From Armatimonadota bacterium (GTDB lineage: Bacteria > Armatimonadota > Fimbriimonadia > Fimbriimonadales > Fimbriimonadaceae), in NCBI GenBank assembly GCA_027451905.1, contig DAIDHV010000006.1, positions 62,001 through 126,000 on the forward strand: a stretch of 64,000 nt of DNA, in the 5' to 3' direction. Within the stretch, counting starts at the first letter, position 1, and each line of letters opens with the position of its first letter. Shown piece after piece: positions 80-3,105 of the stretch. The notes under the pieces were generated by a model that saw only the letters and a program-made list of their open reading frames with translations, ran no database searches and was not told the origin of the DNA. The translations under genes and the position numbers were made by a program.

Positions 80-531
80 GAGCTATTATTCAGGTTGTCA
101 GGTCGGCAAAAGTCACCATAAACGGCGCACTTTGCGGGGAGTGCGGCACCGGATTTCTCATCTATTTAGCGATACATAAAGATGACGACGAGCTTGCCTG
201 CCAGATGATGGTTGATCGCATTTCTAAGCTAAGAATTCTGCCAGACCACGCAGGGAAGCTTAATTGGTCTCTCAATGAGGTTGAGCCCTCAGAAAAGGCA
301 AAGATTTTGCTTATTTCTAACTTTACAGTCTATGGAAATCCGTGGAATGGCAGGCGCCCCAGCTACCAAGACTCGGCGTCCTTTGAACTTGGACAAAAGC
401 TGTATTTGTTGGTTGGGAACCAATTGAGAAGTCAAGGTATTACAGTCAGTGAGGGGGAGTTTGGCGCGGACATGGAAATTGAATCGGTTGCCATTGGCCC
501 TGTCAACTTGATAATTGATACGAAAAGGTGA
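76..531 (+). CDS. dtd: D-aminoacyl-tRNA deacylase, divergent motifs
   Basis: Dtd hydrolyses D-amino acids, and glycine on tRNA-Ala, off mischarged tRNA in the cytoplasm. The 151 residues match the family's usual length (about 145-150), starting MRAIIQVVRSAKVTING and carrying the GRRPSY block near residue 95. The two family signatures are present but altered. The SQFTL motif reads SNFTVYGN, keeping the catalytic-site Thr. The C-terminal NxGPxT motif reads AIGPVN, keeping Gly-Pro but losing the flanking Asn and the final Thr. The ATG overlaps the preceding stop as ATGA, so it is translationally coupled to the probable rel gene. Family assignment is secure. Whether specificity is normal is open. 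Confidence 0.88.
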   Translation: MRAIIQVVRSAKVTINGALCGECGTGFLIYLAIHKDDDELACQMMVDRISKLRILPDHAGKLNWSLNEVEPSEKAKILLISNFTVYGNPWNGRRPSYQDSASFELGQKLYLLVGNQLRSQGITVSEGEFGADMEIESVAIGPVNLIIDTKR

Positions 532-589
532 AACTTGAACAGAGGGTAGGCGTCGTATAAGTATTGAATCTGAAGCGGAGACCGCGAAT

Positions 590-1222
590 ATGGCAATCAA
601 TGCAGCAGCGTTAGGTCAAAAGAATCTCGAATCAGTCACCCAGTTGACAGATGAAGACCTCATCTCAAGAGCTCAATCTGGTGATTACAACGCTTTTGAA
701 ACCCTCTTTATGAGACATCGAACCATGGTCTATCGCTACTCTTACCAATTGGTTGGCAGAAGGGACGACGCGGAAGATTTAGTCCAAGAATCCTTTGTTA
801 GAGCCTACGTTAACATTGGCAAATACCGAGATCAAGCAAAATTCACCACTTGGCTTCTGAGAATTGTCACAAATTTAGCGGCTGATCAGGCGAGGATGCA
901 CACACGGCGATCAAGTTTAGAACTGCAGCAATCGAAAAGTGGCCTTGCTTGGATGACGATCGGGAATCAGATTTCTCCGGAGTCTGACGTAGAAAACGCG
1001 GTGAGGAACGAATTATTAAGGCTGGCGCTTAGCCAGTTAAGCCCTAGGCATCGAACCGCAATTATCTTGAGAGACGTGGAAGAAAAAGAGTATGGAGAAA
1101 TTGCTGAGATCATGAAGTGCTCGGTTGGCGGGGCAAAATTGCGTGTTCTTAGGGCAAGACGAGCCTTGCAAACTGTAGTCAGCAAATTCTCGAAGGAAAG
1201 TAAGGAGAGCCTGCATGCTTAA
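590..1222 (+). CDS. ECF (sigma-70 family) RNA polymerase sigma factor
   Basis: A 210-residue alternative sigma factor with the two-domain ECF layout. Region 2 spans about residues 25-95 and includes DAEDLVQESFVRAY, followed by a KFTTWLLRIVTNLAAD block. Region 4 spans about 140-195 with the helix-turn-helix EYGEIAEIMKCSVGGAKLRVLRARRAL. It would direct core polymerase to a stress or envelope regulon. The stop overlaps the start of the next gene by 8 bases (1215-1222). That gene is a single-pass membrane protein and is followed by a PDZ protein, so this is an RpoE-like cassette in which the neighbour probably holds the sigma factor inactive. ECF subgroup is not assignable by eye. Confidence 0.93.
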   Translation: MAINAAALGQKNLESVTQLTDEDLISRAQSGDYNAFETLFMRHRTMVYRYSYQLVGRRDDAEDLVQESFVRAYVNIGKYRDQAKFTTWLLRIVTNLAADQARMHTRRSSLELQQSKSGLAWMTIGNQISPESDVENAVRNELLRLALSQLSPRHRTAIILRDVEEKEYGEIAEIMKCSVGGAKLRVLRARRALQTVVSKFSKESKESLHA

Positions 1223-2081
1223 TAAGTTTCAAAAATTGGCAATTGGGAAATCCTTTGATGACCTGAACGGCAAGCAAGAAGAATCCGCAGAGGGCATGCT
1301 AAAGTCGAATCCTGAATTTGAAGCTGAAGTTCAAAAGTACAGGGAATTACGCGCCGGTTTGAACCTGTTGAAGGACGTCCCTGAGTGCCAGCTAACAGCA
1401 GAGCATTTGCGAACTCGATTATTGTCGGAGTCGCTCAATCCTCGATCGAAAAGAGACTGGTCCATTTATGTAGCAACGGCAACTGCTGCCGTCTCTTGCC
1501 TTGTTTTAGGTTTAGTCTGGGTTCAGCAGGGACGCAGCCAACAAAGCATTGGCTATCAAACCCAAAATGCAGACGTTCAATCCACCTCTAGACCCTTGGC
1601 AGTTAACCCTCCCAAGTCCATACTTAAGCCTCTTGATGCACCAAACCTTGCAGAAAAGCCTGCGTCACCGTCTGTGAGCATAGAGAGCTCTCGGTTGGCA
1701 GTTCAGCACCGAAAAGCAAGCCCATCCTATAGTTCTGAACTGAATCCAAACCTCGTTGCTTTGAATGAAGAAAGAGCGATGAGTGTTTTCTTTCCCAGCA
1801 CTAGGACTTCTAGGATGAGTTCAGAAAGCTTCCGGCATGGGTTTGGCGGACCTTCCAATCCTGCTTCTGAGTTAGCCACTCCCAATAACAGGCAGATCAC
1901 GCCTCCGATGACGATGGAAGCTTTGCAGCAATCTTCTAAGCTGTCGACAACAGGGCAATCTGATCAAACGGAGTCAACGTCAGGAAACTTAATCACCTTC
2001 CAGCCGGTTAGAGATCGCAAAACTGGGCTGATTGAAGCAAAGGAGGAACCAAAATCCAATGATGTTCCTCTTGGCGGCTAG
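1215..2081 (+). CDS. Putative single-pass membrane anti-sigma factor
   Basis: A 288-residue protein with an N-terminal cytoplasmic part of about 83 residues, one hydrophobic span at about 84-104 (IYVATATAAVSCLVLGLVWV) and a roughly 180-residue Ser/Pro/Gln-rich outer part of low complexity. The layout is that of an anti-sigma factor. The N-terminal part lacks the HxxxCxxC zinc motif, so a zinc-type anti-sigma domain is not supported by motif. AAGGAG at 1202-1207 precedes the ATG, and the gene overlaps the sigma gene by 8 bases. Function is inferred from context and topology; the sequence itself resembles no family I can name. Confidence 0.6.
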   Translation: MLNKFQKLAIGKSFDDLNGKQEESAEGMLKSNPEFEAEVQKYRELRAGLNLLKDVPECQLTAEHLRTRLLSESLNPRSKRDWSIYVATATAAVSCLVLGLVWVQQGRSQQSIGYQTQNADVQSTSRPLAVNPPKSILKPLDAPNLAEKPASPSVSIESSRLAVQHRKASPSYSSELNPNLVALNEERAMSVFFPSTRTSRMSSESFRHGFGGPSNPASELATPNNRQITPPMTMEALQQSSKLSTTGQSDQTESTSGNLITFQPVRDRKTGLIEAKEEPKSNDVPLGG

Positions 2082-3105
2082 TGCGTTAACCCTTGCTTCT
2101 GCTCTTCAGTCGCCGCTTTCTCCAACCCTGATCCGCGCCGAAGAAACGGCAAGGGCGTCTTGCGTCATCATTCTAGAAAAAGGCTCTAAGCCCTCGGGGA
2201 TGGCCATTTGTGTTACAAAAAACAAACTGTTTATAGCCCCTCAATCCATTGCCAATCGGAAGCGAGTGGTGGGGCTAACCCAATTAGGAGCCAAACTAGA
2301 GTTTAAAAGACTTTCTACTGACCACGTGTCCGGTCTCACTGTGCTCTCCGTTATCGGCAACAATGCCAAAGGGGTCTTACCGGTTACATTGGCGCCTCAA
2401 GACTTTCATCGAGGTGAACAAGCTCTTTTGGTTTTGCCCAATGAAGCGGTAAGAGCGACGATTAGCGGGGATAACGAAATGGCTTACAACCTTTCGAACA
2501 AATCGGCGATTCCTTTAGACCAGGTTCAGTTGATGACCTCAATCCAGAATTTGCAAAGTGGATTTCTCTTTGACACTCAGGGAAGGTTAGAAGGGCTGCT
2601 GAAAGCCAGTCTTCCTATTCAAGAGACCATTACGGGGCAAATCTCTAACTTCAGCGCGGTTTCAATGCAGCAAGCAAAAGTTCAGGTTTATGGCCCTCAG
2701 AGGCTCATCATAGCCTACAGCCCAACCTCTACTTACTTTTCTAGGATCGTGCAAGGATTGGTATCGCCAAACCACCATGTTCCTCACCCTATGTTGGGGC
2801 TTGAGTGTCGAGCGGTCCCCAATGATCGAGGTGCCCTGGTGGTTAATGTCTACACTGGATCACCGGCTGATAAAGCTGGGTTGGAAGTTGGAGATGTTAT
2901 CACTGAGTTTGGGCATCATCCAGTCCGAAATCCGGTTGACTACTTGCGGGCACTGATTGATCAGCCGATCGGACAGCCGGTAGGCATTACCGTGAATAGG
3001 CAAGGCGAAGTGCTGACCCTTCATGCCGTTTTAATTGATGGTTCCGCTACAAAGCAACCGGCTCAAAAATTTCCGCAACCCACTGGACGCTTCGGTCGCC
3101 ATTGA
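2059..3105 (+). CDS. HtrA-like PDZ protein with missing protease triad
   Basis: About 348 residues: an N-terminal signal-like segment (MMFLLAASALTLASAL), a trypsin-like beta-barrel region, then a clear PDZ domain at about 245-325 (SPADKAGLEVGDVITEFG). The fold resembles DegP/HtrA, but the catalytic signatures are gone. Where the active-site GNSGGP is expected the sequence reads IQNLQSGFLFDTQGR, and the His region reads APQSIANRK. It is probably a periplasmic binding or sensor protein, not an active protease. I chose ATG 2059 because AGGAGG (2041-2046) precedes it; the longer reading frame begins at a TTG that lies before the ribosome site. It overlaps the anti-sigma gene by 23 bases and converges on recJ with a 59-base tail overlap. 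Confidence 0.72.
   Translation: MMFLLAASALTLASALQSPLSPTLIRAEETARASCVIILEKGSKPSGMAICVTKNKLFIAPQSIANRKRVVGLTQLGAKLEFKRLSTDHVSGLTVLSVIGNNAKGVLPVTLAPQDFHRGEQALLVLPNEAVRATISGDNEMAYNLSNKSAIPLDQVQLMTSIQNLQSGFLFDTQGRLEGLLKASLPIQETITGQISNFSAVSMQQAKVQVYGPQRLIIAYSPTSTYFSRIVQGLVSPNHHVPHPMLGLECRAVPNDRGALVVNVYTGSPADKAGLEVGDVITEFGHHPVRNPVDYLRALIDQPIGQPVGITVNRQGEVLTLHAVLIDGSATKQPAQKFPQPTGRFGRH

Follow-up and report, generated by a model that had tools for sequence, protein, structure and literature searches.

Here we describe a module of three overlapping genes, for an ECF sigma factor, an anti-sigma factor that spans the membrane once, and a protein of HtrA fold that carries a single PDZ domain; this third protein has lost its catalytic site and is called the pseudo-HtrA below. 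The module occupies positions 590-3105 of the plus strand of the window, that is, the whole stretch of 64,000 nucleotides that was analysed. An earlier note on this DNA had suggested that the trio, with its dead PDZ protein, may be an envelope-stress circuit not described before, and as a description this view is well supported. As to its working, we give about an even chance to the reading that it is an envelope-stress module in which the anti-sigma tail is capped by the pseudo-HtrA in an RseB-like manner. The cutting site has been lost, yet the place beside its partners has been kept throughout the phylum, and the pseudo-HtrA therefore probably binds rather than cuts.

Organization of the module

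The order sigma factor, anti-sigma factor, PDZ protein, and the overlaps between the genes, are as originally described, with Pfam recognizing Sigma70_r2, Sigma70_r4_2 and PDZ_2 (Table 1). The first two genes overlap by 8 nt and the last two by 20-23 nt. The likeliest start of the PDZ gene is the ATG at 2059 or 2062 and not the TTG at position 2032, in view of the AGGAGG preceding the ATG and of the 20-nt overlap and ATG start that are usual in relatives. Most relatives have GAGG(T) at the Shine-Dalgarno place of this gene. The trio is flanked at its 5' side by dtd (76-531) and at its 3' side, on the opposite strand, by recJ, nusG and greA. As a separate observation, the anti-sigma stop codons in loci L040-L079 and L110-L119, as far as read, are all TAA or TAG and never TGA, and the sigma stop codons are mostly TGA; the lack of TGA at the anti-sigma stops is probably explained by the overlapping frame, which codes for the signal peptide of the next protein.

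Table 1. Positions of the module's features in the window
Feature	Position	Strand	Basis or remark
ECF-type autoregulatory promoter GAAAC-N16-CGTC (GAAACTTGAACAGAGGGTAGGCGTC)	530..554	+	35 nt before sigma start; overlaps dtd stop codon
ECF sigma factor, 210 aa	590..1222	+	Pfam Sigma70_r2 1.7e-18, r4_2 2.3e-13; NCBIfam sigma70-ECF superfamily, above cut-off
Anti-sigma factor, 288 aa	1215..2081	+	Helical domain in the cytoplasm, a single TM helix, then a Pro-rich linker and a conserved tail in the periplasm; no zinc motif
Predicted TM helix of anti-sigma factor, aa 82-104	1458..1526	+	Hydrophobic stretch; helix in AlphaFold model
Anti-sigma C-terminal tail (NLITFQPVRDRKTGLIEAKEEPKSNDVPLGG)	1986..2078	+	Column entropies; candidate pseudo-HtrA ligand
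Shine-Dalgarno AGGAGG of pseudo-HtrA gene	2041..2046	+	Direct reading; within anti-sigma tail codons
Pseudo-HtrA, 348 aa	2059..3105	+	N-terminus resembles a signal peptide; trypsin-fold domain lacking the triad; single PDZ
Ser63 codon, catalytic His position	2245..2247	+	Alignment with 8 intact HtrAs of same phylum
Gly93 codon, catalytic Asp position	2335..2337	+	Alignment with 8 intact HtrAs of same phylum
Gln167 codon, catalytic Ser position	2557..2559	+	Alignment with 8 intact HtrAs of same phylum
PDZ domain of pseudo-HtrA	2794..3033	+	PDZ_2 1.7e-12

A protease fold without a catalytic site

The claim that the PDZ protein lacks working catalytic motifs is borne out by alignment with eight intact HtrAs, in which Ser63, Gly93 and Gln167 occupy the positions of the triad; the register of the Ser column is uncertain by one, as S168 adjoins it, and the catalytic His is absent in either register. 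An AlphaFold model of the pseudo-HtrA made from 52 relatives nevertheless has a complete HtrA protease plus PDZ fold (pLDDT 87.3, pTM 0.82). An intact triad is absent from the pseudo-HtrA and from all 60 of its relatives in the clade. Foldseek placed DegS first and Mycobacterium tuberculosis HtrA1 second among its matches, and VIA-align superposed the model on the latter protein (Rv1223) with a Z of 25.7 at 3.3 A over 271 residues with 22% identity. Together, these data show that the fold has been retained and the catalytic site lost: the His-Asp-Ser triad and GNSGG that characterize active HtrA/DegS proteases are missing, while the trypsin-like double barrel and PDZ that characterize the HtrA fold are present. 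The PDZ is found in 52 out of 52 relatives, with G247 at its start invariant among them. The explanation as a decayed gene was rejected in view of the retained fold and the full-length open frames in relatives. The HtrA fold covers the whole model, and no RseB-like entry occurs among the Foldseek and VIA-align matches listed; the likeness to RseB is used here as a working analogy only and not as a family assignment.

Conservation of the trio and history of the loss

When 60 relatives were searched, long homologues turned up in most family members. In 39 of 41 same-order loci, the window included, the sigma gene shares the strand of the PDZ gene and lies 300-1200 nt 5' of it, and the other two loci are at contig ends, so that the trio is kept in 39/39 assessable loci and a chance arrangement is excluded. 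The earlier expectation that the gene order would be conserved in relatives therefore holds, also for families f2, f3 and f5 of the window's order and, beyond the order, for at least three more families, f8, f12 and f40. The flanking dtd and recJ-nusG are often retained as well. Two reduced 1.5-Mb genomes of genus g29 of the same family (G028 and G227) gave no pseudo-HtrA match at the cut-off used; G028 retains a DegS-like active HtrA.

The constancy of this linkage bears on another reading, in which the pseudo-HtrA is an output of the circuit, namely a holding chaperone for unfolded proteins in the envelope, made from the operon when the sigma factor is active. It has in its favor that the gene lies within an autoregulated operon, that the fold and the peptide-binding PDZ have been kept while catalysis was lost, and that DegP-type HtrAs are also chaperones (PMC12735335). 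However, one would expect a gene that is only an output to have parted from the regulator in some lineages, and there is no separation in the 39 assessable loci. In addition, each lineage has a conserved anti-sigma tail of its own next to the pseudo-HtrA, and we consider this reading rather unlikely.

The catalytic His is found in none of the 60 HtrAs of the clade, of which L058, L069, L131 and L143 lie at contig ends or next to an unresolved neighbor so that their linkage is not fully resolvable; it is replaced by Ser, Glu, Asp, Asn, Gly, Arg and other residues. At the Asp position, the clade usually has Gln, Gly or Asn, although f5 and f40 retain Asp. As for the nucleophile Ser, nearly all of the window's order has lost it, and f8, f12 and f40 retain it. 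The 45 unlinked HtrAs of the phylum that were checked (13 loci, the two HtrAs of the window's own genome, and 30 orthologues of the DegS-like type from the family, among which an own-genome copy recurs) all have the His and Ser, one of the 13 loci having Glu for Asp. A maximum-likelihood tree of 75 proteins, several of them on long branches, separates the 60 clade HtrAs from 15 intact unlinked HtrAs by a branch with 100/99 support. This split, combined with the absence of the His from all 60 proteins, indicates an ancient, stable pseudoprotease and fits a single loss of the His with later erosion of the remaining site residues.

It could be argued that the pseudo-HtrA still cleaves peptide bonds by means of an unusual site, as the nucleophile Ser persists in the outgroup families and S168 adjoins its position in the window. 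However, the general-base His is missing throughout and its replacements are varied, and the nucleophile itself is lost in most of the window's order, which makes residual cleavage very improbable.

The anti-sigma factor and its conserved tail

The middle gene was expected to fold as an anti-sigma factor, and the structural evidence agrees with this, albeit with weak scores. The first 105 residues were modeled by AlphaFold as a helical bundle plus TM helix (pLDDT 87.5, pTM 0.53). Most of the high-ranking functional matches in Foldseek are anti-sigma domains (RskA, which ranks first, and MucA, RsiW, RslA, ChrR and DdvA), all weak with E values of at least 0.6, and the others are mainly short three-helix proteins. 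Matches to two NCBIfam anti-sigma models (E values 3e-5 and 2.4e-3) were both below the cut-off. The N-terminal domain thus resembles, in its predicted structure, anti-sigma domains of the type found in RskA, MucA and RsiW, and like other membrane anti-sigma factors the protein combines an N-terminal helical domain with one TM helix and adjoins the sigma gene.

The HxxxCxxC motif that defines zinc-binding (ZAS) anti-sigma factors is indeed absent, as noted earlier, from the protein in the window and from the family members read. Yet it is present at the expected place in f2, f3, most of f5, f8 and f12, and relatives with the motif match zf-HC2 (7.5e-4). Since sister families retain the motif and the window's lineage lost it, its absence is no argument against anti-sigma function. 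Within one order, anti-sigma factors with and without an intact motif occur (L075, L063 and L072-L074), a graded loss of the zinc site.

The TM helix is followed by a Pro-rich linker of ~150 residues without clear conservation (about 3.0-3.7 bits per column at positions -33 to -70) and then by a tail of ~30 residues that is conserved in 39 loci. The tail has V/I/L at -30 to -27, D at -22, T at -19, G at -18, A at -14 and E at -12, and ends in D/N at -6, V at -5, hydrophobic residues at -4/-3 and G at -2 and -1. Column entropies are 0.6-2.5 at the V/I/L positions, the TG, A-14 and the GG, with third codon positions free at several sites. We regard this tail, from its conservation, as the best candidate ligand of the pseudo-HtrA, and it gives a concrete form to the sensing or holding role suggested in the earlier note, which we infer rather than observe.

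It should be noted that the tail is also a stretch of regulatory DNA. Its EV codons form the ribosome-binding site of the pseudo-HtrA gene, and codons -6/-5 contain the ATG of that gene, so that conservation at the protein level is confounded for EV and the last six codons, and the initial idea that the whole tail motif is a protein-level signal had to be trimmed accordingly. Could the conservation of the entire tail be a mere by-product of the signals by which translation of the next gene begins, its ribosome-binding site and overlapping start region, without any role for the protein? The match of GAGG(T) in the EV codons to the ribosome-binding site and the embedded ATG speak for such an explanation. 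However, the overlap begins only downstream of the conserved positions between -30 and -14 (-30 to -27, -19/-18 and -14), whose third codon positions vary, and in f2 the tail ends in SF directly before the stop codon in 8/8 loci despite differing codons and overlaps of 17-29 nt. We therefore judge the by-product explanation improbable.

The ends of the tail differ between lineages: DVxIGG in the window's lineage, SF in f2, VE in f8, and mostly Y, W or L after a YVIG-like strand in f12 and f40. Typical PDZ ligands are hydrophobic C-terminal residues, which GG and VE are not, and the binding mode may therefore differ between lineages.

Promoter and putative regulon

The sigma factor is a short protein with sigma-70 regions 2 and 4 only, both above the Pfam cut-off, and, as is characteristic of ECF sigma factors, a promoter with an AAC-type -35 element precedes its own operon. 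The motif GWAAC-N16-CGTC is found 5' of the sigma gene in 37/48 loci versus 5 of 1999 control tiles of 250 nt, and the spacer is 16 in all 37 loci even though 15-17 was permitted in the search. The stricter form of the motif has only 6-13 sites per genome in nine genomes. A signal-peptide-like gene start lies 8-70 nt downstream of 13 of the 75 motif sites read versus 1.9-2.5% of random positions (p ~1e-8). The random positions are blind to any general excess of promoter-like motifs close to the starts of genes, which is covered in part by the reversed motif, with such a gene start just downstream at 0/30 sites. The probable targets of the sigma factor are thus its own operon and a limited number of genes for exported proteins, and a predicted regulon of this kind fits a role in the envelope. 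Candidate members are exported proteins, alike by eye, with an ECF-type motif just 5' of them at G000:C2:354059 (L163) and G032:C1:2158651 (L256), the former with a weak match to DUF4139. We also observed that eight of the nine genomes have fewer copies of the motif than of its reversed control, which could reflect selection against copies in the wrong place, or codon bias.

Control of the DegS-like active HtrA by the sigma factor was tested and is not supported: the strict promoter precedes this gene in 0/30 orthologues, and hence the presumed site-1 protease is not evidently part of the regulon. Upstream of the DegS-like HtrA gene in the window's genome (G000:C5:150454, L200/L203), GAAACTTGAACA, a 12-mer identical to that of the sigma promoter, occurs 42 nt before the start; the GAAACTTGAACA element has a spacer of 17 before CGTT and is not kept in the orthologues. 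Furthermore, an active HtrA of 533 aa in two sister species (L184, at G018:C1:1311379, and L185) is preceded, at a distance of 192 nt from its start, by a perfect match to the ECF promoter, which was not seen at the other HtrAs checked.

Proposed mechanism

In our proposal, the pseudo-HtrA is exported, and its PDZ and/or dead substrate groove would hold the tail of the anti-sigma factor. In the resting cell, the capped anti-sigma factor would be shielded from site-1 cleavage, as RseA is by RseB. Under envelope stress, misfolded envelope proteins or free C-termini would compete for the groove and thereby free the tail, after which an active genomic HtrA (the DegS-like one of 400 aa or the one of 594 aa) could cut the periplasmic arm and RseP could then cut within the membrane. 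The freed sigma factor would transcribe its own operon and a few genes for exported proteins. The window's genome encodes RseP and two intact HtrAs, one of them with a DegS-like N-terminal anchor, and the components for the usual two-step cleavage, should it take place, are thus available.

The presence of intact HtrAs in the same genomes, and the retained HtrA fold, would also agree with a different role, in which the pseudo-HtrA is a non-catalytic partner that joins an active HtrA or switches it on allosterically, and so promotes cleavage of the anti-sigma factor. There is a precedent in MamO, a protein of the same fold, which MamE-dependent proteolysis requires although the site of MamO itself is degenerate (PMC4794232). 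However, the gene order links the pseudo-HtrA to the anti-sigma gene and not to the genes of active HtrAs, and its fast divergence (21-27% identity versus 39-51% for the DegS-like HtrA within the same family) does not point to close contact with a partner that itself changes slowly. We regard such a partnership as unlikely. The capping of the tail is preferred on two grounds: by gene order the pseudo-HtrA belongs with the anti-sigma gene, and no other periplasmic element of the anti-sigma factor is conserved. Against capping stand the Gly-Gly end of the window-lineage tail, which is no classic PDZ ligand, the double use of EV and the last six codons as ribosome-binding site and start of the next gene, and the lack of the strict promoter before the DegS-like orthologues.

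A broader and more tentative view, to which we give somewhat less than an even chance, is that these phylum-wide ECF circuits go back to a single, ancient conversion of a protease into a receptor that no longer cuts. This receptor would read the tail of its own anti-sigma factor and swap this tail for the ends of misfolded proteins, and the tail codes of the lineages (GG, SF, VE, Y/W) would change together with the receptor.

Comparison with known systems

The module shares with the RpoE-RseA-RseB-DegS-RseP circuit of Escherichia coli an ECF sigma factor, a single-span anti-sigma factor, a periplasmic accessory protein in the operon and autoregulation; the HtrA fold plus one PDZ is shared with DegS, a top structural match. 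Unlike in E. coli, the accessory protein is an HtrA pseudoprotease rather than the unrelated RseB, and the active HtrAs are encoded elsewhere. In M. tuberculosis, the sigE-rseA-htrA genes (Rv1221-Rv1223) have the same order of sigma factor, anti-sigma factor and HtrA as here, and Rv1223, the best structural match of the pseudo-HtrA, is regarded as an active serine protease. Rv1223 has a large N-terminal cytoplasmic part (PMC3062566). The pseudo-HtrA, unlike Rv1223, has no triad and has a plain signal-peptide-like start. The AlgU-MucA-MucB-MucD cluster of Pseudomonas aeruginosa also combines a sigma factor, an anti-sigma factor and periplasmic partners, including an HtrA-fold protein; MucD matches the pseudo-HtrA in fold and the MucA domain is among the neighbors of the anti-sigma domain. 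There, the RseB-like MucB is a protein of its own and MucD is proteolytically active, unlike the module described here, in which one dead HtrA takes the third place. MamO of magnetotactic bacteria is an HtrA pseudoprotease with non-catalytic roles (PMC4794232). Unlike the pseudo-HtrA, it is a magnetosome protein with a metal-binding site and a transporter domain and has no sigma-factor linkage.

Hence, ECF/anti-sigma/HtrA neighborhoods were known already from the E. coli RpoE system with DegS and from M. tuberculosis sigE-rseA-htrA, and HtrA pseudoproteases from MamO. In the open-access literature, we found no description of a dead HtrA that accompanies an ECF/anti-sigma pair, with the loss fixed phylum-wide and with conserved tails. 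The module offers a testable case of the change of an enzyme into a receptor. It also supplies a little-studied group with a stress pathway that has a defined promoter motif, GWAAC-N16-CGTC, by which the targets of the pathway can be listed. Whereas the known HtrA-linked sigma circuits center on a protease that cuts, the fold and the place of the gene have been kept here and the cutting machinery has been lost, which isolates the sensing or binding role of the HtrA-PDZ architecture from proteolysis.
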